Assembly (NCBI GenBank): GCA_021202515.1 | Contig: JAJQCW010000027.1 | Coordinates: 1 to 44,829 of the forward strand | Direction: 5' to 3' | DNA: 44,829 nt | From: Clostridiales bacterium | GTDB taxonomy: Bacteria > Bacillota > Clostridia > Oscillospirales > Oscillospiraceae | Shown: positions 362 to 44,829 of the stretch, piece by piece | Position numbering within the stretch: the stretch's first letter is position 1 | Layout of the letters: each line of letters starts with the position of its first letter | The notes under the pieces: model-generated | What the model was told of the DNA's origin: nothing | Seen by the model: the letters and a program-made list of their open reading frames with translations, nothing else | Database searches by the model: none | Position numbers and translations under genes: made by a program

Positions 362-654
362 GACATCGTCGTTTTCATGACCTTCAAAAGCGTTTCCACA
401 AAACCCATAAAAAAAGAAACGAAGGCAGGAGAAGGCGAAATCCTGGAAACACATTCTTTACAGTATTTTCACAAATGACAGCCAAACGTTTATTTTATGT
501 TGCGTTATCTGTTGTAAAGTACCGTTATCATCCAAGAAAAAAGGTGAAAGCGTTTCCCACCCCCAAAACAGCGCAGTTTTCGCATTGAGATACCGTTTTA
601 AGGCTTCTGCCTTGGACAGGGAGAAGCGCAGCTCCGCAGGCAGGGAGCGCAGCG

Positions 655-764
655 GAAGTGCCCCTTGAGGGCAGAAGTACCCCTCGAGGGTAGAAGTGCC
701 GCTTGACGGCGGAGGGCAAAGCCCCGGAAGTGCTGCCTGACAGCAGAAGTACCGCTTGACGGTA
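655..764 (+). repeat. Array of five 19-nt covarying hairpin units
   Basis: Five units share the form GAAG, 5-nt arm, 5-nt loop, 5-nt arm. The arm pairs are TGCCC/GGGCA (659-673), TACCC/GGGTA (678-692), TGCCG/CGGCG (697-711, last pair a wobble), TGCTG/CAGCA (731-745) and TACCG/CGGTA (750-764). The loops are CTTGA, CTCGA, CTTGA, CCTGA and CTTGA. Units 1-3 are spaced exactly 19 nt apart, as are units 4-5. A 15-nt spacer with a small GGGC/GCCC hairpin separates the two groups. The arms differ between units but stay complementary, which points to a structured element. The same unit recurs in at least eight other places in the window. Confidence 0.85.
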
Positions 765-910
765 AAGCAGATTGTCAAAAAAACCAATTTCCCAAAATGA
801 AGTGGCGTAAAAAGTTATGAAAGCCCTCCGCAGGAGTTTTGTTGCGCAAGCAACAAAATAAAATGAAATCCGTGCTTTTAGCCGGGCGTGTACCGGCAAA
901 AGCACACAGG

Positions 911-947
911 CAGGGAGCGAAGCGGAAGTGCCGCTTGACGGCGGAGG
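911..947 (+). repeat. Single copy of the hairpin element
   Basis: The sequence CAGGGAGCGAAGCGGAAG leads into TGCCG (929-933), CTTGA and CGGCG (939-943), then GAGG. It has the same organisation as the array at 655-764 with only one hairpin unit. The leading CAGGGAGCGNAGCGGAAG block also precedes the array at 655 and, in variant form, the copies at 35611 and 37861, so it belongs to the element. Confidence 0.75.
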
Positions 948-8792: not shown

Positions 8793-10577
8793 TCAGCGCA
8801 GCCGGTATAACATCCGGGCCTCCCAGGGGTAGAAGGTGCTTCCTGCGGCATTGGGATAGTTGGTCAGCAGTGGGGGCACGTTCTCCCAGCCCTCCGGCAG
8901 GGGATACTCCGCCTCGCGCCCGCTGAAATTGCCCATCACCAGCAGCTCTTCCGCCTCCGTCCTGCGCAAATAGACGAACATCTGCTCGTTCTCCTCCGCC
9001 AGCAGGGTGAAGTCCCCCTCGGTCAGCACCGGCAGCCGCTTGCGCAGAGCGATGAGCTTCTGATAGTAGTAGAAAATCGAATCCTCGTCCGCCAGGGCCG
9101 CTTCTGCGTTGATTTCCTGGTAATTGGGGTTGACCGGCAGCCAGGGGATGCCTGTGGTGAACCCAGCGGAGGGGCTGTCGTCCCACTGCATGGGGGTGCG
9201 GGCGTTGTCCCGTCCCTTGGCGTAAATGGAGGCCAGCACCTCTTCCTCTGGCACACCTGCGGCCAGCCGCTCCCGGTAGAGGTTTTGAATCTCCAGGTCC
9301 TGATATGCCTCGATGGGGAGCCGAATGTTGGTCATGCCCAGCTCCTCTCCCTGGTAGATGTAGGGGGTTCCCTCCATCCCGTGGAGCAGGGTGGCCAGCA
9401 GCTTGGCCGACTGCACCCGGTATTTCCCGTCGTCTCCCCAGCGGGAGACGATGCGGGGCAGGTCGTGGTTGTTCCAAAAGAGGCTGTTCCAGCCCTGGCC
9501 GTGCAGTCCCGTCTGCCAGCGGGCAAAGCTCCGCTTCAGCTCCACAAAGGGCAGCGGGGCCAGGTCCCACTTCTCCCCGCCGGGCCGCTGGTCCAGTACC
9601 ATCTGCTCAAACTGGAACACCATAGAAAGCTCACTGCCGTCCGGCGCACTGTACAGCCTGGCCCGCTCTACGTCTGCGCCCCAGGCTTCGCCCACGGTAA
9701 CGATACACCCCTTTTGGAAAACATTAGCACTCAGCTCCCGCAGGAACTCGTGGAGTCGGGGGCCGTTGCCGGTGATTTTTTTGTCCGGCTCCTTGGCGAT
9801 TTGGTCGATGACATCCAGCCGGAAGCCCTCCACCCCCTGCTCCATCCACCACAGCAGCATTTGGTACAGCTCCTGCCGCACCTTGGGGTTTTCCCAGTTC
9901 AGATCCGGCTGCTGAGGGGCGAACTGGTGGAAGTAATACTGCCCCACGCCAGGCACCCAGTCCCAGGCGGGGCCGCCGAAGGTGGCCCGCATATCGTTGG
10001 GAGGGAGAGGCGTAGCCTCGCAGGGAGGGACAACGCCCCGGAAGTACCCCTTGAGGGTAGAACTGCCGCTTGACGGCGGAGGTTGGCCGGGTTCCCCGTC
10101 CCGCCAGACGTAGTAATCGTGGTAGGGGTTTTCCCGGCTCTTGCAAGCCTCCCGGAACCAACGGTGCTGGTCGGAGGTGTGGTTGAGCACCATGTCCATG
10201 ATGATGGAAATACCTCTGGCTTTGGCCTCCCGGATGAGGGTTTTCATCTGCTCCATGGTGCCGAACATGGGGTCGATGGCCTGGTAGTCGGAGACATCAT
10301 AGCCGTTGTCCACCTGGGGCGAGGCACACACGGGCGAGAGCCAGATGCCGTCCACCCCCAGCTCTGCCAGGTAATCCAGCCGCTGGAGGATGCCTCCCAG
10401 GTCACCGATGCCGTCCCCATCGCTGTCCTGGAAGCTCTTGGGATAGATTTGGTAGAAAACGGCCTGTTTCCACTGCTGTCGGGCAGCACTTACCCTCAAG
10501 GGGTACTTCCGGCACTTCGTGCCTCCCTGTCCGAGGCTTTGCCCCTCCCTGCATCCAGTTTTTATCTTATCTAACAT
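8793..10577 (-). CDS. GH13 alpha-glucosidase (oligo-1,6-glucosidase type) carrying two element insertions
   Basis: Cytoplasmic enzyme that hydrolyses short alpha-glucans, 594 residues from the ATG at 10577, which follows an AGGGAG ribosome site. GH13 motifs are DMVLNHTSDQHRWF (about 128-141), the nucleophile in GFRLDVID (D255), the acid/base in TVGEAW (E297) and NNHDLPR (H371, D372). Two stretches are foreign to the family and coincide with copies of the hairpin element. Residues about 8-34 are N-terminal, before KQAVFYQIYPKSF. Residues about 167-191 split GEPGQ from PPNDMRATFGG. The paralogue at 19673 has neither. All catalytic residues remain, so activity is plausible. It lies downstream of malQ and the debranching enzyme, and maltodextrin or isomaltose breakdown is the likely role. 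Confidence 0.9.
   Translation of the reverse strand: MLDKIKTGCREGQSLGQGGTKCRKYPLRVSAARQQWKQAVFYQIYPKSFQDSDGDGIGDLGGILQRLDYLAELGVDGIWLSPVCASPQVDNGYDVSDYQAIDPMFGTMEQMKTLIREAKARGISIIMDMVLNHTSDQHRWFREACKSRENPYHDYYVWRDGEPGQPPPSSGSSTLKGYFRGVVPPCEATPLPPNDMRATFGGPAWDWVPGVGQYYFHQFAPQQPDLNWENPKVRQELYQMLLWWMEQGVEGFRLDVIDQIAKEPDKKITGNGPRLHEFLRELSANVFQKGCIVTVGEAWGADVERARLYSAPDGSELSMVFQFEQMVLDQRPGGEKWDLAPLPFVELKRSFARWQTGLHGQGWNSLFWNNHDLPRIVSRWGDDGKYRVQSAKLLATLLHGMEGTPYIYQGEELGMTNIRLPIEAYQDLEIQNLYRERLAAGVPEEEVLASIYAKGRDNARTPMQWDDSPSAGFTTGIPWLPVNPNYQEINAEAALADEDSIFYYYQKLIALRKRLPVLTEGDFTLLAEENEQMFVYLRRTEAEELLVMGNFSGREAEYPLPEGWENVPPLLTNYPNAAGSTFYPWEARMLYRLR
10006..10083 (+). repeat. Hairpin element inside the alpha-glucosidase gene
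   Basis: On the plus strand, opposite to the gene, GAAG leads to TACCC/GGGTA (10045-10059) and GAAC leads to TGCCG/CGGCG (10064-10078), both with CTTGA loops, then GAGG. About 75 bp are extra relative to the expected protein. This adds 25 residues (PPSSGSSTLKGYF and what follows) without a stop or frameshift. CCTCC-type sequence lies on both sides of the insert, which may be a duplication or part of the element. Confidence 0.8.
10474..10537 (-). repeat. Hairpin element fused into the N-terminus of the alpha-glucosidase
   Basis: On the minus strand the units are TACCC/GGGTA with loop CTTGA (plus-strand 10491-10505) and TGCTG/CAGCA with loop CCCGA (10474-10488). They are preceded by a GGCAC-GAA-GTGCC hairpin and GGAAG. 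The element lies between the ATG at 10577 and the first conserved GH13 residues and is translated in frame. Confidence 0.75.
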
Positions 10578-10588
10578 GAGCTGTCTCC

Positions 10589-10700
10589 CTTCGCCGTCAA
10601 GCGGCACTTCTACCCTCAAGGGGCACTTCCGAAGCTGCGCTTCTCCCTGCGGCACTTTGTGCCTCCGCCGTCAAGCGGCACTTCCGCTACGCTCCCTGCC
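10589..10700 (-). repeat. Element copies at the malQ 3' end
   Basis: On the plus strand, CGCCG-TCAAG-CGGCA (10592-10606), CTTC, TACCC-TCAAG-GGGCA (10611-10625) and, after about 40 bases, CGCCG-TCAAG-CGGCA (10666-10680) appear. This is the minus-strand orientation of the element. The block supplies the last residues and the stop of the second MalQ, and spans the junction to the alpha-glucosidase ribosome site. Confidence 0.75.
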
Positions 10701-12187
10701 TGTCGTTTTAGGATTTGTGAGCGGTGCCGCCGCAAAGCGATTTCCGCCGATGCCAGTGAGGTCAACCGCCACTCCCAGTTGGGGGACCCCACCGTTCCCG
10801 GCAGGTTCATCCGGCCCTCGCTCCCCAGCTCCATCAGGTCTACCAGGGGAAAAATCGCCAGCGCCGAGGGGCTGTCCAGCACCCAGTCTATCACCCGTCC
10901 GCAGGGGCTGCCGTTGAGATAACCCTGCCGTTTGAGCCACTTCCGCAGCTTGCGCTGCCTGGCGGCGGGCTGGGATAGATACCACTCCCGCAGGGTGGCG
11001 TTGTCGTGGGTGCCGGTGTAAAATATTTGCTGCGCCAGTGGTTCAGGCCACAGGTCGGGCCGTTTTTTGTCCAGGTAGAGGTCGTATTGGAAAATTTTCA
11101 TCCCCATCAGACCAAATTGCTCCCTGAGCCGCCTCATACGTGGACTTTGCACCCCCAAATCCTCCACCACTACCGTCAAGCGGCACTTCCGGCACTCCGT
11201 GCCTCCTTGTAATTGCAAATCGGGCAGCTCCCGGAAGATCGTCCCCAGCAATCGCTCTCCGGGGGCTTCCTGCCAGGTGCCCTCCACGGCTGTGGGGCAG
11301 GCGGCAGGGATTTTCCAGTAGCGGTCCATCCCTAGAAAATGGTCCAGCCGCACCAGGTCAAAGAGGGTATCCGCGTGGCGCATCCGTTCCATCCAGAAGG
11401 CGAAGTCGTCGCGCTCCATGGCCGCCCAGTCATAGGCGGGGTGACCCCACCGCTGGCCGGTTTTGCTGAAGGAATCCGGCGGCACTCCGGTGACGAACCG
11501 AGGCCGCCCATCCCCGTCCAACAGAAATTGCTCCCGGTTGGCCCAGACGTCCACACTGTCCGCCCCCATGTAAAAGGGCAGGTCCCCCATCAGCCACACG
11601 CCCTTTTGGTGTGCGTAGTCTGACAGGCGGCGCCACTGCCGGGCGAACACGTACTGCAAAAACATCTGGTAGCCGATTTCGTCCTTTAGCGGAACCAAGT
11701 CAACGCTGTGTTGCTGCGGCCAATCCCGGTAAGCGCTCGGCCATTCCGTCCAATTTCGCCCCTGATTAACCCGTTTGAAAGCCCGGAACACGCCGTAGTG
11801 CTGCACCCATTTCCGGCTGCAAAACGCCCGATAGTCCTCATCTGGCTGGAAGTTGGCCCAGGCCCGGCGGAGCAGCGGCTCCTTCCAGCGGCGCACCCGG
11901 TCATAGTCCACCCGCCCGGCGGGGAACGCTGGCGGTTCAGCCTTTTCGAGCAGCCCCTCTGCCGCCAGCTCGTCCAGGCTGATGTAGATTTCGTCCCCCG
12001 CAAAGGCGGAGTCGGGCGAATAGGGCGAATTTCCATAGCCCAGAGGGTTCAAAGGCAGCAGTTGCCAGACGGTAACACTGTTTTCCGCCAGCAGGTCCAC
12101 CCACTGCCGGGCCGTTTCCCCCAGGTCGCCCACGCCGCCGGGGGCAGGCAGGGAGGACAGCGCCAGTAAAACGCCTGTTTCTCTCAT
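10616..12187 (-). CDS. malQ: 4-alpha-glucanotransferase, second copy, with an insertion at the active site
   Basis: GH77 amylomaltase of 523 residues acting on cytoplasmic maltodextrins. The motifs are present: LLPLNPLGYGNSPYSP near 43-58, the nucleophile in RLDHFLGMD (D282), the acid/base in VEDLG (E342) and TGTHDN (D395). A 14-residue stretch, QGGTECRKCRLTVV (about 327-340), has no counterpart in the intact MalQ at 6308. It ends just before the catalytic glutamate strand and is encoded by a copy of the hairpin element. The last 25 or so residues (from about AGSVAEVPLDG) are also element-encoded. The start overlaps the debranching-enzyme stop by 4 nt. Whether it is still active is open, since all three catalytic acids are kept. 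Confidence 0.92.
   Translation of the reverse strand: MRETGVLLALSSLPAPGGVGDLGETARQWVDLLAENSVTVWQLLPLNPLGYGNSPYSPDSAFAGDEIYISLDELAAEGLLEKAEPPAFPAGRVDYDRVRRWKEPLLRRAWANFQPDEDYRAFCSRKWVQHYGVFRAFKRVNQGRNWTEWPSAYRDWPQQHSVDLVPLKDEIGYQMFLQYVFARQWRRLSDYAHQKGVWLMGDLPFYMGADSVDVWANREQFLLDGDGRPRFVTGVPPDSFSKTGQRWGHPAYDWAAMERDDFAFWMERMRHADTLFDLVRLDHFLGMDRYWKIPAACPTAVEGTWQEAPGERLLGTIFRELPDLQLQGGTECRKCRLTVVVEDLGVQSPRMRRLREQFGLMGMKIFQYDLYLDKKRPDLWPEPLAQQIFYTGTHDNATLREWYLSQPAARQRKLRKWLKRQGYLNGSPCGRVIDWVLDSPSALAIFPLVDLMELGSEGRMNLPGTVGSPNWEWRLTSLASAEIALRRHRSQILKRQAGSVAEVPLDGGGTKCRREKRSFGSAP
11168..11209 (-). repeat. Hairpin element inside the second malQ gene
   Basis: On the plus strand TACCG-TCAAG-CGGCA (11171-11185), CTTCC and GGCAC-TCC-GTGCC (11191-11203) are seen. 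This is one element in the same orientation as the gene. The extra DNA is 42 bp (14 codons), so the frame is kept. Confidence 0.8.
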
Positions 12188-29757: not shown

Positions 29758-30281
29758 TGAACCGGTTGATTTATCGCGCATTGTCCAGCAGGTTCGGCGC
29801 AAATCTTGAATTACGGATACTCATGCGGCAAACAGTGAAAGCCTTCGACGTGAAAGTGCCGGAGGCTGCCGGGTGTTCCACTCCGGAACTGTTGAAAACC
29901 TACGCACAGTTCACAGCAAAAGAGGCCGTGCGAGCCATACAACATGGGGATACTCTCGAAACACTGCATCAGAAACTGTATCAAATGGCCTATACTCTGG
30001 GGAGCCGTCTTCGCCGATTGTTGAATCCGAAAGACGAGAAGGAATGTTTTTCTGTTATTACACTGCTCTATCGCAACATCGGGATTCAAATATGTGAGGA
30101 ATCGCCCGGAACAGTTTGTGTTCGCAAATGCTATTTCAGCGGCTTCTATGCGCCGGAAATCTGCTCTGTCATTTCTGCCATTGACCAGGGGATTTTTGCA
30201 GGCATTTATCAGGGCGGCACGCTGACATTCCATGAGCGTATCACAGAAGGCTGTGATGTATGCCGGGCTGATTTCAGATGA
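29754..30281 (+). CDS. Small protein resembling the L-2-amino-thiazoline-4-carboxylate hydrolase family
   Basis: 175 residues, overlapping the fusion gene by 4 nt (ATGA), so translation is coupled. The C-terminal third reads VRKCYFSGFYAPEICSVIS, then DQGIFAGIYQGG, FHERITEG and CDVCRADF. This resembles the ATC-hydrolase/V4R-like small-molecule domain as I recall it, with several conserved cysteines. The first 100 residues look helical. No signal peptide or membrane segment is seen. The real substrate is unknown; in this operon it may bind an acyl intermediate or iron-sulphur cofactor, which is speculation. Confidence 0.55.
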   Translation: MMNRLIYRALSSRFGANLELRILMRQTVKAFDVKVPEAAGCSTPELLKTYAQFTAKEAVRAIQHGDTLETLHQKLYQMAYTLGSRLRRLLNPKDEKECFSVITLLYRNIGIQICEESPGTVCVRKCYFSGFYAPEICSVISAIDQGIFAGIYQGGTLTFHERITEGCDVCRADFR

Positions 30282-30319
30282 AAATAAGACCTACAAGCCG
30301 GAAAGGAGGGGCTGACAGA

Positions 30320-31657
30320 ATGAAAAAAGCGATTGTGATAGGCTCCGGCGCTGGGGGCGCTATGGTGGCCAAAGAGCTGCAAGGCCATTTTCAGGTGACG
30401 ATATTGGAGGCCGGGGGTGAATTTCAGCCCTTTGCTTTTTCTGTAGACAAGCTGGCCGGGCTGCGCAAGACAGGGCTGTTTCTGGATGAGCGAATGATCT
30501 CTATGCTGTTCCCAGCCATGCGGGTCCAAAAGGCCACCTCGGATATGGTAATGGTACATGGCAGATGCACGGGTGGCGCCACGACTCTCGCCACCGGCAG
30601 CGCACTGCGATATGATAAGGGCCTGCTGAAATTGGGTATCCATCTGGATGAGGAATTTGAGGAGCTTGCACAGGAGATTCCCCTGTCCACTGACCATGAG
30701 AAATACTGGTCATCCCAGACGAAAGCCCTTTTTGACGCCTGTGTACAGTTAGGCTTTCAGCCAACGCCCACGGGCAAGCTGGTGGACTTTGACCGCTGCG
30801 TCCATTGCGGACGCTGTGTGCTGGGGTGCCGAACAGGAGCGAAATGGGACAGCCGCAGGCTGCTGGCAGAGAGCATCGAAAAGGGAGCTGTGCTGAAAAC
30901 CAACTGCAAGGTAACGAAGCTCGGCATTGACCGCAGTGACAATACCGTACATACCGTTTATGCAAAAGAAGGCGGGAGGCAAACGACTTACAGCGCTGAT
31001 CTGGTCGTCCTGGCTGCCGGAGGGCTGGGAACACCAATCATTCTGGAGCACTCCGGAATCACCTGTGAGGCGACGCTTTTTGTAGACCCTGTGCTCTGTG
31101 TGGCTGCGCCGTATCCGGGAGCGGGACAAGCAGGGAGGCACGCGGTGCCGGAAGTGCCGCTTGACGGCAACCATCATATCCCCATGCCATTCGTCATGCA
31201 GAGAGACGGCTATATGCTGTCCCCTTATATGGATTATCTCAGCTTTTTCTTCAATAAGTCCTGGCGTCTGCCGTCCAAAGATATCCTCAGCATCATGATA
31301 AAGCTCTCCGATTCCAGCTTTGGTGCCAGCCGCAGCCGGAAGATAGAAAAGGAACTGACCTTGACAGACCAGGAACGGCTGAAAGCCGGCGTGTCTGACT
31401 GCAAGGAGATTCTGGGAAAGATGGGCGTTGCGGAGAATGACATATTCCTTGGAACACTGAATGCGGGACATCCCGGCGGGATGCTGCCGTTGACATCGGA
31501 GGAATCAAAGAGCTTTCACAATCGACGCCTGCCTGAAAATCTGTATATCGCCGATGCTACCATATTGCCGGAGTCGATGGGGAATCCACCGATTTGGACG
31601 ATTCTCGCCTTGGCAAAGCGTATTGCAAAGGTGTGTGTGACGGCCATGACCGGATAA
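30320..31657 (+). CDS. GMC-type FAD oxidoreductase with a ferredoxin-like cysteine cluster and an element insertion
   Basis: Flavoprotein of 445 residues. The FAD-binding GSGAGG (8-13) and the acidic ILEAGG (28-33) are at the N-terminus, LAAGGLGTP (231-239) is mid-chain, and GHPGG (383-387) and GNPPIW (421-426) are near the C-terminus, as in GMC alcohol oxidases and dehydrogenases. A C-x2-C-x2-C-x3-C motif (C160, C163, C166, C170) suggests a 4Fe-4S cluster for electron transfer, unusual in classical GMC enzymes. The start at 30320 follows a strong GGAGG; an upstream in-frame ATG at 30278 overlaps the previous stop but is less likely. Residues about 270-283 are encoded by a hairpin element. 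Oxidation or reduction of a long-chain alcohol/aldehyde is inferred from the fusion gene upstream. Confidence 0.85.
   Translation: MKKAIVIGSGAGGAMVAKELQGHFQVTILEAGGEFQPFAFSVDKLAGLRKTGLFLDERMISMLFPAMRVQKATSDMVMVHGRCTGGATTLATGSALRYDKGLLKLGIHLDEEFEELAQEIPLSTDHEKYWSSQTKALFDACVQLGFQPTPTGKLVDFDRCVHCGRCVLGCRTGAKWDSRRLLAESIEKGAVLKTNCKVTKLGIDRSDNTVHTVYAKEGGRQTTYSADLVVLAAGGLGTPIILEHSGITCEATLFVDPVLCVAAPYPGAGQAGRHAVPEVPLDGNHHIPMPFVMQRDGYMLSPYMDYLSFFFNKSWRLPSKDILSIMIKLSDSSFGASRSRKIEKELTLTDQERLKAGVSDCKEILGKMGVAENDIFLGTLNAGHPGGMLPLTSEESKSFHNRRLPENLYIADATILPESMGNPPIWTILALAKRIAKVCVTAMTG
31131..31169 (+). repeat. Hairpin element inside the GMC oxidoreductase gene
   Basis: CAGGGA leads to GGCAC-GCG-GTGCC (31137-31149), GGAAG, then TGCCG-CTTGA-CGGCA (31155-31169), all perfectly paired. 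It is read as AGRHAVPEVPLDG in frame. The frame used differs from that of the copy in the second malQ. Confidence 0.85.
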
Positions 31658-35598: not shown

Positions 35599-35792
35599 GC
35601 TGTTAGCTGTTGCCGTCAAGCGGCACTTCCGCTTCGCTCCCTGCCTGTAGTCAGGTATTGCCAATCTAAAGCGAACAGCAAAAAAGAAAACTGAGAGCAA
35701 AACCGCCCGTTTGTGAAGGGATGCAAACGGGAAACGCAGCACGTAATGTCAAGCACCACAAAGCTATTGGCTGATGGCTAAGAGCTAACAGC
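35598..35792. repeat. Inverted-repeat-flanked insert with a hairpin element
   Basis: AGCTGTTAGCT (35598-35608) at the end of the antiterminator gene and AGCTAACAGCT (35782-35792) before the EIIA gene are perfect 11-bp inverted repeats. Between them lie one element copy (TGCCG-TCAAG-CGGCA, 35611-35625, then CTTCCGCTTCGCTCCCTGCC) and a hairpin CCCGTTTG/CAAACGGG (35706-35731). The right repeat is part of the 18-nt block also found at 8770-8787. The left repeat includes the antiterminator stop codon. Confidence 0.6.
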
Positions 35793-37819: not shown

Positions 37820-37860
37820 CAGCAGCCACTCTCACCGGCCACTGGAGCGTTTCCACAGGC

Positions 37861-37915
37861 AGGGAGCGTAGCGCGTGGAAGTGCCCCTTGAGGGCAGAAG
37901 TGCTGCCTGACAGTA
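37861..37915 (+). repeat. Hairpin element between the tannase gene and the RAT leader
   Basis: AGGGAGCGTAGCGCGTGGAAG leads to TGCCC-CTTGA-GGGCA (37882-37896; the lead block is 21 bases minus the final unit), GAAG, and TGCTG-CCTGA-CAGTA (37901-37915, last pairs broken). A lone GGCAC-GAA-GTGCC hairpin at 38096-38108 just upstream of the next gene is probably a worn part of another copy. Confidence 0.75.
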
Positions 37916-38149: not shown

Positions 38150-41100
38150 ATGAAAAAATTACGCAAATTGTGTGCGCTTTTGCTCTCCATGGCAATGGCG
38201 CTCTCCTGCGCGTCTCTCCCCGCAGTAGCGGCAGAGGTTGGCGTCAGCGAGGGGACTGTGGTCGTTTCCACAGACACCGAGGAAACCACTGAGGAAGAAT
38301 CCGAAGAGGACCCCGCCGAAGAGGAAGGTGCGGACTCTGCGGAAGAATCCACCGAGGAAGACGCCGCTGACAGCTCCGAGGAAGATGCGGAGGAATCCGC
38401 CGAAGAAGAAGCGACAGTAGAAGCGGCAGAAGCCGAGGAAACCGAGGAAGCGGACGCGAGCGTAGAGGCGGAGAGCGCCGTTCCTACTGCGACTGCGGAG
38501 AGCACACTCTTCGGCTACGGCTACACCGATGGCCTCAGCTGCATGATGGGTTCCACCATTGACAGCCTGACCGGTGCGGCCACCATCTCCCTGGCCCTGG
38601 ATGAGGGCGAAATTGACGACAGCCTGATCGACAGCAGCAACGCCACTGTCAAGCTGGTGGACGGCGACGGCTATTACGCCGCCGAGCTGATCCTCAGCGC
38701 CACCACTCTGACCGGGAACTGGGAAAACGGCCAGACCTCCTACACCATGAGCGTAGAGGACCTGGTGTGGAACAATGATGTCTACAGCGGCACCGTGGGC
38801 GACGCCGGCACCCGGCAGTGGAGCGCCTTCGGCGGCGACGGCAACGGCTGCTACACCTTCTATCTGGAGGTCAGCGGCATCACCTACAACGGCGAGGAAG
38901 TGGCTTCCACCACCTTCCCGGTGGAGGTCTACATCTTTGGACGGGACGGAACCGACCGCGGCACCGTCTTTGACACGGAAGTGACCCTGCCCACCGCCAC
39001 AGAAAGCTCCTCCGGCAAGAGCCAGAGCAGCGAGACCCAGTGGACCTGGTCCGGCGATAGCAGCGCGGGCGTCCCCATCCTGTGCGACAGCCTGGCTGAT
39101 GACTTCTACATCACCTGGCCCTCCGGCAGCGACGCCTCCGGCGTGACCGCCAGCGATGTCACCGTGACCCTGTCCAACGAGTACGGCACCACCTACACCT
39201 TGGAAACCGAGAACGCCTACGGCGAGCAGCAGTACGCTGTCTACTCCAGCAAGGGCGAGACCCAGGTGGCTGTGACCTTCATGCACTGGTCCTACACCCC
39301 CGTGTTCACCACCATGACCATCACCGTGGACGACGGCGACGGCCTGACTGCCACCAAGACCTATGAGGTGGCCAGCGTCTACGCCTACGTGATTCAATCC
39401 GGTGGCCGCGCCAGAGGCGACGGCAACGTGGTCACTTTCAGCTATTACGGCCTGGATCTGGACAGCCTGAACGATGTCTATCAGCTTGCTAAGGACACGG
39501 AGGACTACACCCTCTATACCACTGTTGACGACACCACCTATTATTACGCCGAGGACGAGAGCGGCACTGGCTATCTGACCACCGATGAGGACGAGGCGGC
39601 TGTCTATACCCAGTCTGCCGATGCACGGGAGCCTGCGCTGGTCAACGCCACTGTCTTTATCGAAAACCGCCTGACCCTGACCGAGGACAAGACCGTTGAC
39701 GGCAAGACCGTCACCTTCACCAAGGAGCTGGGCAATGGCGACGGCAACAACACGCTTTACATGAAGGGCGCGGACGTGCTTGCCAACGGCGTAAAGGCCG
39801 CAACGGGCTACGTCATCGGCGAGAACCTGACCCCCTATGACGGCAACGGTGACCGTTACGGCACCCTGATGCCCTATGAGCACTGGGCCTGGCAGACCCG
39901 CTTCTCCGCCGGTTGGACCAGCGAGGACGGTGAAACCGCCACCAGTTTCCCCTATGTCAGCTTCCCCTACGGCTATGCGGCGGGCGAGACCCCCAGCACC
40001 GGCGGCGATGAGGAAGAGGAAGAACCTGTCGAGGTCTCCGTCACTGCGGAGAGCGACATCTTTGGTTCTGCCGACACCGGCAACAAGAGCACCCTGAAGG
40101 CCGAGTTGATTTATACCAGCGGCCCTGGCGACATCAACCTCTATTATTACAATGAAGATGGCGAGCGCGTCCAGTATGAGGATCAGTCTGAGACCCATGA
40201 GGGCGACACCGTCACCTATACCGGCTCCGCTACCATCTCCCTGGCTCTGTCCGAGGGTGACATTGACGACAGCAAGATCGACAGCAGCAACGCCGTGGTC
40301 AAGCTGGCCGAAGGCGACGGCTACTATCCTGAGGAACTGGTTCTGGCTGCCACCAGTCTGACCGGCAGTTGGGAGAACGGCCAGATGACCTACACCCTGT
40401 CTGAAGGCGACCTGGAATGGTACACCGGCGACTACGAGTGGAGCGATTACAACAGCGGCCGTGAGTGGAGCTGCTTCGGCGGCGACGGCAACGGCTACTA
40501 CACCTTCAACTTTGAGGTCAGCGGCATCACCTACGACGGCGTCGAGGTTGACCCTGTTCAGTTCCAGGTGAACGTCTACATCTGGGGCCGTGACGGTTCT
40601 GACCGCGTGTCCACCTTCAACGAGACCGAATCCCCTGAGGCCGTGGAAAGCTCCTCCGGCGTGTCCCAGACCGATGAGATCCAGTGGACCTGGTCCGGCG
40701 ACACCACCACCGGCGACCCCATTCTGTGCGACAACCTGGCCGATGACTTCTACATCACCTGGCCCTCCGGCACCGACGCCTCCGGCCTGACGGCGGACGA
40801 TGTCACCGTGACCCTTTACAACGCTTACGGCGACTCCTACACTCTCCAGACCGAGAACGCCTACGGCGAGAAGCAGTACTCTGTGTTCTCCAGCGAAGGC
40901 GAGACCCAGGTGGCCGTGACCTTCATGCACTGGGCCTATGTCCCTGTGTTCACCACCATGACCATTACCGTGGACGGCGACGGCCTGACTGCCTCCAAGA
41001 CCTATGATGTGGACAGCGTCTATATCTACATGGTCCAGCAGGGCGGCGGCGGCGTCACCGTGGACGGTACTGTCACCACCTACAGCTACTATGGCTTTGC

Positions 41101-44100
41101 CAACCTGGACAGCGTCTGGCAGGTCATGACCGAATCCACCTATGTTCTGACCACCACCATTGACGACACTACCTATTACTACGCTGAGGACGGCACCCTG
41201 ACCACCGACAAGAGCGAGGCCCAGTCCTTCGACGCCACCGGCGAAGCGGACACCAACCAGCAGCTCATCGGCAACACCGCCTGGATCACCACCCGGCTGA
41301 ACCAGACGGAAGACAAGACTGTGGACGACGAGACCATCACCTTCGACAAGTCTTACAGCACCGGCAAAACCGCCAGTGCATCCACCGCTGCGGCCAACGG
41401 CCTTGTTGCGGCGGACGGCTATATCCTGGGCAGCTCCATCACTCCTTATGAGCTGTGGGCCTGGCAGGATCGCTTCCTGGCCGGTTACACCCCCGATGAG
41501 GCAGAGCCGACTGGTTCTCCCTACGTCAGCTTCCCCTATGGCTACGAGGCGGGCGAGACCCCCAGCACCGGCGGCGATGAGGAAGAAGAAACCGTTGAAG
41601 TTTCCGCCACTGCGGAAAGCACTCTCTTCGGCTACGGCTACACCAGCGGCGGCAGCTGCCTGATGGGTTCCACCATTGACAGCCTGACCGGCGAGGCCAC
41701 CATCTCCCTGGCCCTGGACGAGGGCGACATCGACGACAGCCTGATCGACAGCAGCAACGCCACTGTGACACTGGTGGATGGCGAGGGTTACTACGCCGCC
41801 GAGCTGATTCTCAGCGCCACCACCCTGACCGGCAGTTGGGAAAACGGCCAGACCTCTTACACGATGGACGTGGAAGACCTGGTTTGGGATAACACCGTCT
41901 ATACCGGCGAGATGGGCACTGCCACCCGGCAGTGGAGCGCCTTCGGCGGCGACGGCAACGGCTGCTATACCTTCTATCTGGAGGTCAGCGGCATCACCTA
42001 TAACGGACAGGAAGTTGCTTCCGCCACCTTCCCGGTAGAGGTTTATATCTTTGGCCGGGACGGCACCGACCGCGGCACGATCTTTGACGACGAAGTGTCT
42101 CTGCCCACCGCGACAGAAAGCTCCTCCGGCGTCAGCCAGAGCAGCGAGATTCAGTGGACCTGGTCCGGCGACGACAGCGCTGGCGTTCCCATCCTTTGCG
42201 ACAGCCTGGCTGATGACTTCTATATCACCTGGCCCTCCGGCACCGACGCTTCCAGCCTGACGGCGGACGATGTCACCGTGACCCTGTCCAACGAGTACGG
42301 AACCACCTACACCTTGGAAACCGAAAACGCCTATGGCGAAGTCCAGTATGTGGTCTACTCCAGCGAGGGTGAGACCCAGGTGGCCGTGACCTTTATGCAC
42401 TGGGCCTATACCCCTGTGTTCACCACCATGACCATCACCGTGGACGGCGACGGCCTGACCGCCACCAAGACCTATGATGTGGCCAGCGTCTACGCCTACA
42501 TGGTGCAGTCCGGCGGCCGCGCTGCCGGCGATGGCAACGTAGTCACCTACAGCTTCTATGGCCTGGATCTGGACAGCCTGACCGATGTTTATCAGCTGGC
42601 CAAGGACACGGAGGATTACACCCTCTATACCACCGTTGACGACACCACCTATTATTATGCCGAGGACGAGAGCGGCAATGGCTATCTGACCACCGATGAG
42701 GACGAGGCAGTTGTCTACACCCAGTCCACCGAGGTACGGGAGCCTGCGTTGGTCAATTCCACTGTCTTTATCGAAAACCGCCTGACCCTGACCGAGGACA
42801 AGACCGTTGGTGAGGATACCATTACGTTCACCAAGGAGCTTGGCAATGGCGACGGCAACAACAACCTCTACATGAAGGGCGAGGACGTTCTGGCCAACGG
42901 CGTGAAGGCCGCGAAGGGCTATGTCATCGGTGAGAACCTGACCCCCTATGACGGCACCGGCGCCCGTTACGGCACCCTGATGCCCTATGAGCACTGGGCC
43001 TGGCAGACCCGCTTCTCCGCTGGCTGGACCAGCGAGGACGGCACCACTGCCACCAGCTTCCCCTATGTCAGCTTCCCCTACGGCTACGAAGCGGGCGAGA
43101 CCCCCAGCACCGGCGGCGATGAGGAAGAAGAATCGGTTGAAATTTCCGCCACTGCGGAAAGCACTCTCTTCGGCTATGCTTACACCGACGGTCTTAGCTG
43201 CCTGATGAGCGAAACCATTGACAGCCTGATCGGTGAGGCCACCATTTCCCTGGCCCTGTCCGAGGGTGATGTCGATGACAGTCTGATCGACAGCAGCAAC
43301 GCCACCGTCAAGCTGGCGGAGGGCGACGGCTATTATGCCGACGAGCTGACCCTCGGCGCAACTACCCTGACCGGCAGTTGGGAGAACGGTCAAATCTCCT
43401 ACACCTTGGACGTGGAGGATCTGGTTTGGAACAACACCGTTTTCACCGAAGGCTACAGCGGCGGCACCCGTGAGTGGAGCTGCTTCGGCGGCGACGGCAA
43501 CGGCTGCTACACCTTTAACCTGGAAGTCAGCGGCATCACCTACAACGGGCAGGAAGTTCCCTCTGTCACCTTCCAGGTGGAGGTCTACATCTTTGGCCGT
43601 TCCGGGGCTGACCTTGCCGCGCTGTACAATCTTGAAGAGGACGCCGTTGCGGTGGAAAGCACCTCCGGCGTGTCCCAGACCGATGAGATCCAGTGGACCT
43701 GGTCCGGCGATACCAGCGCGGGCGTTCCCATCCTGTGCGACAACCAGACCGACGACTTCTATATTACCTGGCCCACCGGCAGCGACGCCTCCGGCCTGAC
43801 GGCAGAGAATGTCACTGTCACCCTCTACAGTGAGTACGGCGACTCCTACACCCTCCAGACCGAAAACGCCTATGGGGAAAAGCAGTATGCTGTGTTCTCC
43901 AGCGAGGGCGAGACCCAGGTGGCGGTCATGTTCCGGCACTGGGCCTACACGCCGGTGTTCACCACCATGACCATCACCGTGGACGGCGATGAGTTGACCG
44001 CCTCCAAGACTTACGACATCGGCAGCGTTTATGTCCATATGGTGCAGTCCGGCGGGCATCCTGCCCACGACGGCGATGTGGTCACGTTCTCCTATTATGG

Positions 44101-44829
44101 ACTGGATGCTGACAGCCTGACCAGCGTCTGGCAGTTGGCAAAAGAGCCGTATTACACACTGACCACCACAGTGGACGACACCACCTATTACTACGCTGAG
44201 ACCGAGGACGGCACCGGTTACCTGACCGAAGACGCGGACGCAGCCGCCACCTTTGACGCCACGGACGACCGCACCCCCACGCTGGTTGGCAGCACCGTAT
44301 TCCTGCAAAACCGTCTGAACCAGACCGAGACCAAGACGGTAGACGGCGAGGGCGTGACCTTTGACAAGGTTTACGCCTACGATGACGGCGACGACAACGT
44401 GTACAAGACCGGCGAAGCCCTGACTGCAAACGGCGTAGAGCCTGCCGCCGGTTATGTGATGTGGGATACGGGCTATGAAGGGACCATGTGGTCCTGGCAG
44501 GACCGTTTCCTCTCCGGCTGGACCGAGGAGGACGGCACCACCGCCACCAGCCTGCCCTATGTCAGTTTCCCCTACGGCTATGAGGCTGGCAGCACCAGCG
44601 GCGAGACCGAGACCGTTGACACCACTTCCCTGTCTGCCACCATCGAAGCGGCTGAGACCCTGACCGAGAGCGACTACACCGCTACCACCTGGGCTGCGCT
44701 GCAAACCGCGCTGGAGACCGCCAAGACTGTGGCCGCCGATGCCGACGCCACTCAGGACGAAGTAGACGAAGCCACTTCCGCCCTGTCCGCCGCTATCGAC
44801 GCCCTGGCAGCGGCTGAGAAGGTCACTGT
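38150..44829 (+). CDS. Giant exported repetitive protein, 5' part (open at the window end)
   Basis: No stop is reached in 2226 codons, so this is an incomplete gene. GGAG at 38139-38142 precedes the ATG. A signal peptide (MKKLRKLCALLLSMAMALS, ending near AVAA) is followed by a very acidic Glu/Ser linker (about 35-110). Four modules of about 510 residues follow, each with blocks such as STIDSLTGAATISLALDEG, WTWSGD, PILCDSLADDFYITWP, VDDTTYYYAED and FPYVSFPYGY, and are joined by acidic ETPSTGGDEEE-type linkers. After module four an FIVAR-like helical repeat starts (YTATTWAALQTALETAK, about residue 2175 on). This is an adhesin- or binding-type surface protein; no enzyme motif is seen. A cell-wall anchor would lie outside the window. 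The RAT leader upstream suggests sugar-controlled expression. Confidence 0.88.
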   Translation, partial: MKKLRKLCALLLSMAMALSCASLPAVAAEVGVSEGTVVVSTDTEETTEEESEEDPAEEEGADSAEESTEEDAADSSEEDAEESAEEEATVEAAEAEETEEADASVEAESAVPTATAESTLFGYGYTDGLSCMMGSTIDSLTGAATISLALDEGEIDDSLIDSSNATVKLVDGDGYYAAELILSATTLTGNWENGQTSYTMSVEDLVWNNDVYSGTVGDAGTRQWSAFGGDGNGCYTFYLEVSGITYNGEEVASTTFPVEVYIFGRDGTDRGTVFDTEVTLPTATESSSGKSQSSETQWTWSGDSSAGVPILCDSLADDFYITWPSGSDASGVTASDVTVTLSNEYGTTYTLETENAYGEQQYAVYSSKGETQVAVTFMHWSYTPVFTTMTITVDDGDGLTATKTYEVASVYAYVIQSGGRARGDGNVVTFSYYGLDLDSLNDVYQLAKDTEDYTLYTTVDDTTYYYAEDESGTGYLTTDEDEAAVYTQSADAREPALVNATVFIENRLTLTEDKTVDGKTVTFTKELGNGDGNNTLYMKGADVLANGVKAATGYVIGENLTPYDGNGDRYGTLMPYEHWAWQTRFSAGWTSEDGETATSFPYVSFPYGYAAGETPSTGGDEEEEEPVEVSVTAESDIFGSADTGNKSTLKAELIYTSGPGDINLYYYNEDGERVQYEDQSETHEGDTVTYTGSATISLALSEGDIDDSKIDSSNAVVKLAEGDGYYPEELVLAATSLTGSWENGQMTYTLSEGDLEWYTGDYEWSDYNSGREWSCFGGDGNGYYTFNFEVSGITYDGVEVDPVQFQVNVYIWGRDGSDRVSTFNETESPEAVESSSGVSQTDEIQWTWSGDTTTGDPILCDNLADDFYITWPSGTDASGLTADDVTVTLYNAYGDSYTLQTENAYGEKQYSVFSSEGETQVAVTFMHWAYVPVFTTMTITVDGDGLTASKTYDVDSVYIYMVQQGGGGVTVDGTVTTYSYYGFANLDSVWQVMTESTYVLTTTIDDTTYYYAEDGTLTTDKSEAQSFDATGEADTNQQLIGNTAWITTRLNQTEDKTVDDETITFDKSYSTGKTASASTAAANGLVAADGYILGSSITPYELWAWQDRFLAGYTPDEAEPTGSPYVSFPYGYEAGETPSTGGDEEEETVEVSATAESTLFGYGYTSGGSCLMGSTIDSLTGEATISLALDEGDIDDSLIDSSNATVTLVDGEGYYAAELILSATTLTGSWENGQTSYTMDVEDLVWDNTVYTGEMGTATRQWSAFGGDGNGCYTFYLEVSGITYNGQEVASATFPVEVYIFGRDGTDRGTIFDDEVSLPTATESSSGVSQSSEIQWTWSGDDSAGVPILCDSLADDFYITWPSGTDASSLTADDVTVTLSNEYGTTYTLETENAYGEVQYVVYSSEGETQVAVTFMHWAYTPVFTTMTITVDGDGLTATKTYDVASVYAYMVQSGGRAAGDGNVVTYSFYGLDLDSLTDVYQLAKDTEDYTLYTTVDDTTYYYAEDESGNGYLTTDEDEAVVYTQSTEVREPALVNSTVFIENRLTLTEDKTVGEDTITFTKELGNGDGNNNLYMKGEDVLANGVKAAKGYVIGENLTPYDGTGARYGTLMPYEHWAWQTRFSAGWTSEDGTTATSFPYVSFPYGYEAGETPSTGGDEEEESVEISATAESTLFGYAYTDGLSCLMSETIDSLIGEATISLALSEGDVDDSLIDSSNATVKLAEGDGYYADELTLGATTLTGSWENGQISYTLDVEDLVWNNTVFTEGYSGGTREWSCFGGDGNGCYTFNLEVSGITYNGQEVPSVTFQVEVYIFGRSGADLAALYNLEEDAVAVESTSGVSQTDEIQWTWSGDTSAGVPILCDNQTDDFYITWPTGSDASGLTAENVTVTLYSEYGDSYTLQTENAYGEKQYAVFSSEGETQVAVMFRHWAYTPVFTTMTITVDGDELTASKTYDIGSVYVHMVQSGGHPAHDGDVVTFSYYGLDADSLTSVWQLAKEPYYTLTTTVDDTTYYYAETEDGTGYLTEDADAAATFDATDDRTPTLVGSTVFLQNRLNQTETKTVDGEGVTFDKVYAYDDGDDNVYKTGEALTANGVEPAAGYVMWDTGYEGTMWSWQDRFLSGWTEEDGTTATSLPYVSFPYGYEAGSTSGETETVDTTSLSATIEAAETLTESDYTATTWAALQTALETAKTVAADADATQDEVDEATSALSAAIDALAAAEKVT
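38489..44600 (+). repeat. Four tandem modules of about 1.5 kb in the giant gene
   Basis: Module starts are marked by ACTGCGGAGAGC-like sequence at about 38489, 40043, 41609 and 43147. Spacing is about 1.54-1.57 kb. Modules 1 and 3 resemble each other more than they resemble 2 and 4: both have LGNGDGNNTLYMKG-like and LMPYEHWAWQTRFSAGW blocks. Modules 2 and 4 share GVSQTDEIQWTWSGD, YGDSYTLQTENAYGEKQY and FDK blocks. This ABAB order suggests duplication of a two-module unit. Confidence 0.8.

Follow-up and report, generated by a model that had tools for sequence, protein, structure and literature searches.

A stretch of 44,829 nt from a Clostridiales bacterium (hereafter the window, meaning this whole stretch) carries short hairpins at scattered places, and their stem bases differ from copy to copy. 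A preliminary description took as the unit a 19-nt hairpin (GAAG, a 5-bp stem and a CTTGA-like loop) and listed ten places. The locus raises the question of what the repeated unit is, whether it moves and what might move it. Judging from sequence comparison, we found a genuine family of miniature double hairpins, restricted to one genus, within which it has moved. We consider them probably a family of very small non-autonomous mobile elements, moved by a trans-acting enzyme that would read the hairpins.

The repeated unit and its distribution

Filled and empty sites were compared among relatives. We found pairs that differ by exactly 33, 37, 39, 78 or 111 nt with a gap of 0 at the join; other pairs differ less cleanly, their flanks having diverged. 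Some pairs are orthologous places (window 35611-35647 versus locus L123, and L119 versus L116), and many are copies of one dispersed repeat. The empty site of 35611-35647 in L123 is exact, with flanks 94% and 89% identical; the dispersed repeat around 907-943 has empty copies in L044 and L119; and the layout of 10592-10702 matches the insertion in L119 whose empty site occurs in L116. Relatives thus show precise presence or absence of a 33- or 39-nt double hairpin, module A followed by module B. Hence, the mobile unit is A+B, and the 19-nt hairpin, which is module B, is rejected as the unit.

Module B consists of GAAG, a 5-base stem arm, a CTTGA loop (or CCTGA or CTCGA) and 5 complementary bases. 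Module A has a long form of 20 nt (CAGGGA, 5 bases, a 3-base loop, the complement and G) and a short form of 14 nt (CAGGGAGCGNAGCG), and stands 5' of B, directly or further upstream within nested arrays. The second hairpin and the CAGGGAG lead, described earlier as accompanying many copies, are real; both are part of module A. The stems come in a few sets, GGGGC, GAAGC, GGCAC, GGCGC and GGAGC for A and TGCCG, TGCCC, TACCC, TACCG and TGCTG for B. The ends read C/TAGGGA at the left and GGCR or similar at the right, and direct reading of these ends (CAGGGA... versus ...GGCR) shows no terminal inverted repeats.

We tallied unit length over 256 distinct B copies from all loci fetched. A recognisable lead precedes 216 of them, 20 adjoin a preceding B directly, and for the other 20 no lead can be recognised within 30 nt, some being A remainders or decayed leads and a few chance matches. 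Among the 216 units with a lead, 114 are 33 nt and 96 are 39 nt long (210/216 together), both lengths being multiples of three; the other six measure 37, 37, 38, 38, 41 and 44 nt.

The first base of the element and the fourth base of the box change together. C goes with GAAG in 178 of 214 elements and T with GAAA in 32, so that first base and box are matched in 210/214; the combinations C/GAAA and T/GAAG occur in none, and 4 are of other kinds. The two positions lie outside both hairpin arms, and both types co-occur in genomes G194 and G205. This co-change may represent a base pair, and could go back to a single ancestral change. Clades 1 and 3 have a GAAG box and most clade 2 copies a GAAA box, GAAC being rare; some clade 2 copies (in L199, L200, L249, L250 and L251) have a GAAC box, mostly with a decayed lead, and may be an older subfamily.

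Within the window there are 17 B units with all 5 pairs (G-T allowed; Table 1). A unit is present at each of the ten places first listed, the one at 10474 being a truncated B (AGTGCTGCCCGACAGCA) that adjoins the B at 10491.

Table 1. Units, arrays and host genes in the window
Feature	Position	Strand	Details
B units, low coordinates	655, 674, 693, 727, 746, 925, 10041, 10060, 10491, 10592, 10611, 10666, 11171, 31151, 35611, 37878, 37897
Composite array, 148 nt	617..764	+	A 617-636; split lead CAGG 637-640; short A 641-654; B 655-673, 674-692, 693-711; remainder of split A 712-726 (15 nt, 3/4 pairs); B 727-745, 746-764
CAGG + 33-nt element	907..943	+	Short A 911-924, B 925-943; in dispersed repeat
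Nested AABB, 78 nt	10001..10078	+	In-frame 26 residues in GH13 catalytic domain; gene on other strand
Nested array, 78 nt	10474..10551	-	A, GA, A, B, truncated B; in-frame 26-residue insert near GH13 N-terminus
Composite, 111 nt	10592..10702	-	CAGG, short A, B, A remainder, A, B, B
A+B, 39 nt	11171..11209	-	In frame in GH77 gene, just before EDLG segment
A+B, 39 nt	31131..31169	+	In frame in FAD/GMC oxidoreductase
33-nt element + CAGG (37 nt)	35611..35647	-	Dispersed repeat GACTA^ACAGCTAAC
Array	37860..37915	+	Short A, 4 nt, B, B
Host gene, GH13 alpha-glucosidase/amylase family (PF00128)	8793..10655	-	Two in-frame 78-nt inserts
Host gene, 4-alpha-glucanotransferase (GH77, PF02446)	10616..12187	-	One in-frame 39-nt insert; array over 3' end
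Host gene, GMC/FAD oxidoreductase (PF00732, PF01266)	30278..31657	+	One in-frame 39-nt insert
Very long open frame	38159..44704	-	2181 aa

A chance origin of the hairpins is excluded. In the organism's own genome (G000) the B consensus has 181 matches with up to 3 mismatches, and the reversed pattern has 0. Over 0.77 Mb (the window and loci up to L124 without L041, L057 and L077), a perfect Watson-Crick 5-bp stem stands at 67 of 268 GAAG sites with a YYYGA loop and at 0 of 257 sites of five control tetramers; the loci were fetched partly by the same pattern, which inflates the 67/268 and leaves the control zeros unaffected. L041, L057 and L077, chance matches in other organisms, were dropped from the GAAG-site, flank, pairing, first-base/box, array, stem, skew, remainder, target and unit-length counts, L120 from the same counts except the GAAG-site test, and L115 (labelled Bacteroidaceae, a B-like match without A) from the unit-length count alone.

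Among 200 family genomes sampled, four of the genus have 31 to 154 matches, and the other 196 gave seven single hits versus five for the reversed control, which is chance level. Exact matches occur in 19 of the 32 genomes of the genus, all genomes compared being drafts, with 7 to 153 copies in each carrier; the non-carriers have no exact match to the B pattern and may hold diverged copies. In the species collection at least 94 stretches match, and among the matches listed 88 are labelled as Clostridiales or Oscillospiraceae MAGs, one as Lachnospiraceae and one as Bacteroidaceae, with four single hits in unrelated isolates. Hence, the family, first described as dispersed, extends across genome and genus and is not confined to this locus.

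In an rpoB tree of 28 of the 32 genomes and 16 of the 19 carriers (G202, G208, G209 and G225 left out), carriers fall into three separated groups. This calls for no fewer than three gains or losses and is in keeping with transfer or repeated loss. No match was found in the phages, viral contigs (exact pattern) or plasmids searched, and spread by phages or plasmids was rejected. Separately, copies lie within about 210 bases of G000 contig ends in L014, L015, L017, L023 and L025, and the family may break short-read assemblies.

Hairpin pairing and covariation

We defined units by position and boxes, with pairing itself no criterion. Under this definition all five pairs are formed in 190 of 201 B units and 98 of 105 A units, and shuffling the arms of distinct units never matched the observed pairing in 10,000 trials. 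Covariation was scored on 50 distinct 39-mers (97 occurrences), in which 98.9% of cells are paired. The score was 0.445 versus 0.205 for shuffles, none of 500 shuffles reaching the observed value, and slid structures scored 0.03-0.09 (maximum 0.088). Both sides had changed in 70 cells, versus 16 in shuffles, and one side in 32 (T-A/T-G at the base of the stem in 24 of them), and 6 cells are unpaired. Two of the five covariation measures were indistinct from shuffles, namely both-side-changed pairs (36/500 as high) and further pair types (283/500). The earlier observation that stem bases change with pairing kept is borne out, paired changes being commoner than unpaired ones.

In DNA folding, both hairpins form in the two 39-mers folded (z -2.5 and -2.0), whereas the 33-mer favours an alternative hairpin and the short A forms none of its own. 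In RNA folding, long forms had a small advantage over shuffles or none (z -1.1 and 0.0). The alternative hairpin of the short form, for example in window 911-943, spans the A/B border (AGCGG-AAGTG-CCGCT; one such copy was DNA-folded), unlike the long form.

Covariation alone is no proof of selection on structure. Hairpin-templated correction, in which one arm is copied onto the other in replication, would give the same paired-change pattern, and the small number of discrete stem pairs and the rarity of unpaired states agree with it. However, the boxes outside the stems (CAGGGA, GAAG and CTTGA) are also kept, which goes beyond arm copying, and the C/T-G/A pair lies outside both arms. We regard templated correction in place of structural selection as a possible, if somewhat doubtful, source of the covariation. 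The preliminary description had offered selection on structure or a copying mechanism; that the elements are structured and copied stands, and selection with covariation as its sole proof does not.

Insertion sites, nesting and host genes

We found no target duplication at the filled/empty pairs, the differences being exact with gap 0. A one-base duplication was also rejected, the last base of the element equalling the left flank base in 113 of 134 simple elements and differing in 21; the agreement is owed largely to repeated landing sites. Over distinct flank pairs, self-sites included, a purine stands at +1 of the insertion in 120/120. Of the short forms, 43/62 are flanked by GG^GAG, and of the long forms 15/58, with GGGAG making up 0.18% of positions. 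The 33-nt form favours GG^GAG above all, and sites of the 39-nt form comprise GG^GAG, CG^GAAG and other R^R.

The commonest landing site is a larger dispersed palindromic repeat, CCTCCCC TGAAA GGGGAGG or CCTCCCC TTTCA GGGGAGG (L001, L002, L004-L010, L012, L013, L016, L019, L024, L029 and L030). Before or after it stands a second hairpin with a varying stem, for example CCATGC-GAA-GCATGG or CGCCTTTAGGCG, and this second slot is seemingly swapped wholesale. Another dispersed repeat, CTGACTA^ACAGCTAACAGC, is a repeated landing site at the same position (window 35605-35650; L031, L051, L060, L065 and L118).

Two such target sites lie within the element, CAGG^GAG in its lead and CG^GAAG at its A|B junction; hence, it nests into itself. 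Long forms are inserted at the A|B junction, L029 reading A[AB]B versus AB in L056, L110 and L008 (copies of one repeat), and L118 likewise versus L065. Short forms are inserted inside the lead: all 8 elements followed by an A remainder have CAGG before them, and CAGG plus the remainder restores A (one remainder is a base short). Such lead insertion explains part of the array at 617-764 and the 111-nt composite.

Under strict module definitions, the balanced layout A^nB^n is seen in 7/21 multi-module arrays (five AABB, aABB and AaABBB). The other 14 are unequal, some having an A with altered lead or loop and some missing modules; array 617..764, with three A and five B, is not balanced. The site of the 37860..37915 array has a different inner part in L123. 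Adjacent B stems are identical in 0 of 21 pairs, with about 0.8% expected by chance from the array stems, and deletion between identical neighbours may be the cause.

Orientation scored against GC skew gave 62 of 124 overall and, at skew above 0.02, 36 of 59 versus 35.5 expected from target counts, so an orientation bias beyond target availability was rejected. At skew above 0.04 the count was 18 of 24 (p 0.02) and above 0.06 it was 10 of 14 (p 0.18), neither p corrected for targets. Hence, with no clear orientation bias beyond targets, the expected mark of lagging-strand single-stranded DNA transposition is missing.

Several insertions lie inside conserved enzyme genes. For the GMC/FAD oxidoreductase, 6/6 compared orthologues are exactly 39 nt shorter across 31131-31169. 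Both 26-residue inserts of the GH13 gene are absent from 7/7 relatives covering the region (8 were fetched; L198 lacks coverage), and the larger domain alignment with solved structure 4aie breaks at the second insert. The 13-residue insert in GH77 is absent from relative L158 and from structure 2x1i.

More widely, 41 of 165 arrays (a few of them chance B-like matches) stand in a reading frame that stays open for 60 codons to either side, a set chosen for openness that gives no measure of how often frames are broken. We scanned 16 such proteins; Pfam domains were matched in 9, and 7 of the 9 have at least one insert inside the matched domain (GH78, GH36, GH65, DUF2264, GH3, GT8 and AMP-binding). 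A GH3 glycosidase gene (L025:3-1292) holds elements at three points along about 520 bases, all in frame. Of 152 arrays, 15 are flanked by long open frames that differ in phase; 9 of these were scored as 33 or 39 nt, which cannot shift a frame, and for these 9 we rejected frame-breaking insertion. Hence, lengths in threes and mostly open frames lead to predicted inserts of 11, 13 or 26 residues inside genes.

How the element may move

We searched the 32 genus genomes for four mobiliser families (Y1, TnpB, IS110 and RVT_1). PF01797 (Y1, E 0.001) is absent from G000 and present in 7/32 genomes, namely 1 of 19 carriers (G134) and 6 of 13 non-carriers, and TnpB (PF07282) was found in 0/32. IS110 exceeds the cut-off in 4/19 carriers and 2/13 non-carriers, and RVT_1 occurs in 10/19 carriers, including the organism's own genome, and in 6/13 non-carriers. 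None of the four tracks the carriers; hence, Y1/RAYT, TnpB, IS110 and reverse transcriptase were each rejected as a common mobiliser. We likewise rejected an autonomous form carrying a gene between its two modules, on the basis of the 9 lone A hairpins with an exact CAGGGA lead among 123 lone A-like matches (one mismatch allowed; loci biased to B-bearing regions): 8 are chance-like and the ninth (L100) adjoins another unit.

The mechanism we favour is movement in trans. The A+B unit would insert precisely, without target duplication or terminal inverted repeats, at a short purine-rich site. A trans-acting enzyme, not of the PF01797 Y1/RAYT type, would recognise both folded hairpins, on single-stranded DNA or on a copy made of RNA. 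The element's first base may act together with the GAAG/GAAA box that precedes hairpin B (C with G, T with A), and identical neighbouring hairpins would be deleted by recombination, leaving surviving arrays with unlike stems. Against this mechanism we count the failure of the four families to account for the spread, the missing orientation bias, the possible single origin of the first-base/box pair, the short A that is unfolded alone, the RNA folds close to shuffles, the share of balanced arrays (7/21), the 6/216 units of other lengths and the roughly 20 B copies whose lead is not recognisable. Tentatively, the 33/39-nt elements may rank with the smallest units that transpose site-specifically in bacterial chromosomes, and an enzyme class not yet recognised would move them by reading two folded hairpins and a one-base long-range pair (first base and fourth GAAR base); lengths in threes and open frames would then be an adaptation to life inside genes and a source of new 11-, 13- and 26-residue enzyme loops.

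Spread through RNA, a structured transcript being copied by a reverse transcriptase in trans, seems to us rather unlikely. For the Allomyces double-hairpin elements, RNA intermediates have been proposed on the ground that targets are not duplicated, as described in PMC2800124, and the same argument from missing duplication and double-hairpin form can be made here; a similar idea was proposed for GC clusters, according to PMC4478555. The organism's own genome has RVT_1, and a few copies without part of A (L073, L079 and L142) look as 5' truncation would leave them. However, RVT_1 is present in barely more than half of the carriers and also in non-carriers, G216 (126 copies, 95% completeness) is without it, and the great majority of units with a lead are full length.

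It is unlikely that no dedicated enzyme takes part, with template switching or microhomology joins copying hairpins into sites that resemble the CAGGGAG lead. The right side of the target (GAGG) does resemble this lead, and self-insertion occurs; against this reading stand exact junctions and fixed lengths in many unlinked places, the purine that follows in every distinct flank pair, and the patchy distribution, with copy numbers among carriers as unequal as 7 and 153.

We hold it very unlikely that the repeat is a domesticated RNA or DNA signal (a terminator, an mRNA stability element or a nucleoid site) spread for host benefit. In 445 kb of the organism's own sequence, of which 89% is predicted ORF, 11 of 26 arrays are intergenic, as a signal might be; another 5 touch ORF boundaries and 10 fall inside predicted ORFs, some of them doubtful. 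Yet elements stand in frame inside enzyme domains and nest into themselves, 13 of 32 congeners have no exact copy, and five stretches searched gave no Rfam match at gathering score.

Movement as a REP/REPIN by a Y1 tyrosine transposase (RAYT), suggested by the preliminary description, is hardly credible: the family shares with REP/REPIN a tetranucleotide box (here GAAG/GAAA) before a hairpin, small size, high copy number, a doublet as the mobile unit and the absence of target duplication, but PF01797 is missing from the organism's own genome and 18/19 carriers and present in 6/13 non-carriers, the box is neither GTAG nor CGTC, and the two hairpins are unlike and in direct order, where REPINs as described in PMC3116915 have a GTAG box and inverted doublets.

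Among other known classes, a MITE would have terminal inverted repeats and target-site duplication, and the present element has neither. As in elements derived from IS200/IS605, insertion is beside a fixed short motif without duplication; the organism's own genome, however, has neither Y1 nor TnpB, and one carrier (G134) has Y1. The GAAR box may resemble the guide boxes of IS200/IS605 ends. Pneumococcal BOX elements are modular with repeatable inner modules, like the present element, and are longer and of different sequence; we know of no self-nesting with covarying unlike stems in BOX.

Nearest in behaviour, as we judge, are mitochondrial double-hairpin elements and Rickettsia palindromic elements. 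With the Allomyces and other mitochondrial elements, as described in PMC2800124, the family has in common two hairpins, very small size and tandem or combined copies, and, for Allomyces, the absence of target duplication. The 39-nt form has two hairpins, no duplication and small size together; the short A forms no hairpin of its own. Sponge RHE sometimes lie inside genes without frameshift (PMC2800124), as here. The mitochondrial elements are organellar, whereas the present one resides on a bacterial chromosome, comes in units of 33 or 39 nt, has a sharply defined purine target and enters its own lead and A|B junction. For yeast GC clusters, PMC4478555 describes putative target duplications, which the present element does not have.

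Rickettsia palindromic elements, like the present one, are small palindromes inserted in frame in genes (PMC10969869, PMC3733652), but at about 150 bp (PMC10969869) they are far longer than 33/39 nt. For CGTC REPs no dedicated transposase is known, according to PMC3733652 and PMC10969869. The CGTC tag is not at the ends of the present element, whose box is GAAG/GAAA; CGTC occurs on the reverse strand where the stem ends in G, and there alone, inside hairpin B. The main text of the CGTC REP survey has 0 mentions of Firmicutes or Clostridia (PMC3733652).

Topic searches and sequence/peptide-word searches of the openly licensed literature found no paper on such an element, which, together with the Rfam result for five stretches, agrees with the initial remark that no named element of this form was known to its author. 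In bacteria, the family provides a parallel to the double-hairpin elements of organelles, and it comes with filled/empty pairs, a sharply defined target, self-nesting and copy numbers from 0 to about 150 among congeners. It thereby opens to testing how hairpin repeats without a transposase of their own are moved, and the insertions provide clean cases in which conserved enzyme genes gain 11-26 predicted residues and their frames remain open. The family would explain odd peptides (RKCRLTA and EVPLDGG) in the proteins of these gut bacteria, and probably also breaks in their assemblies.
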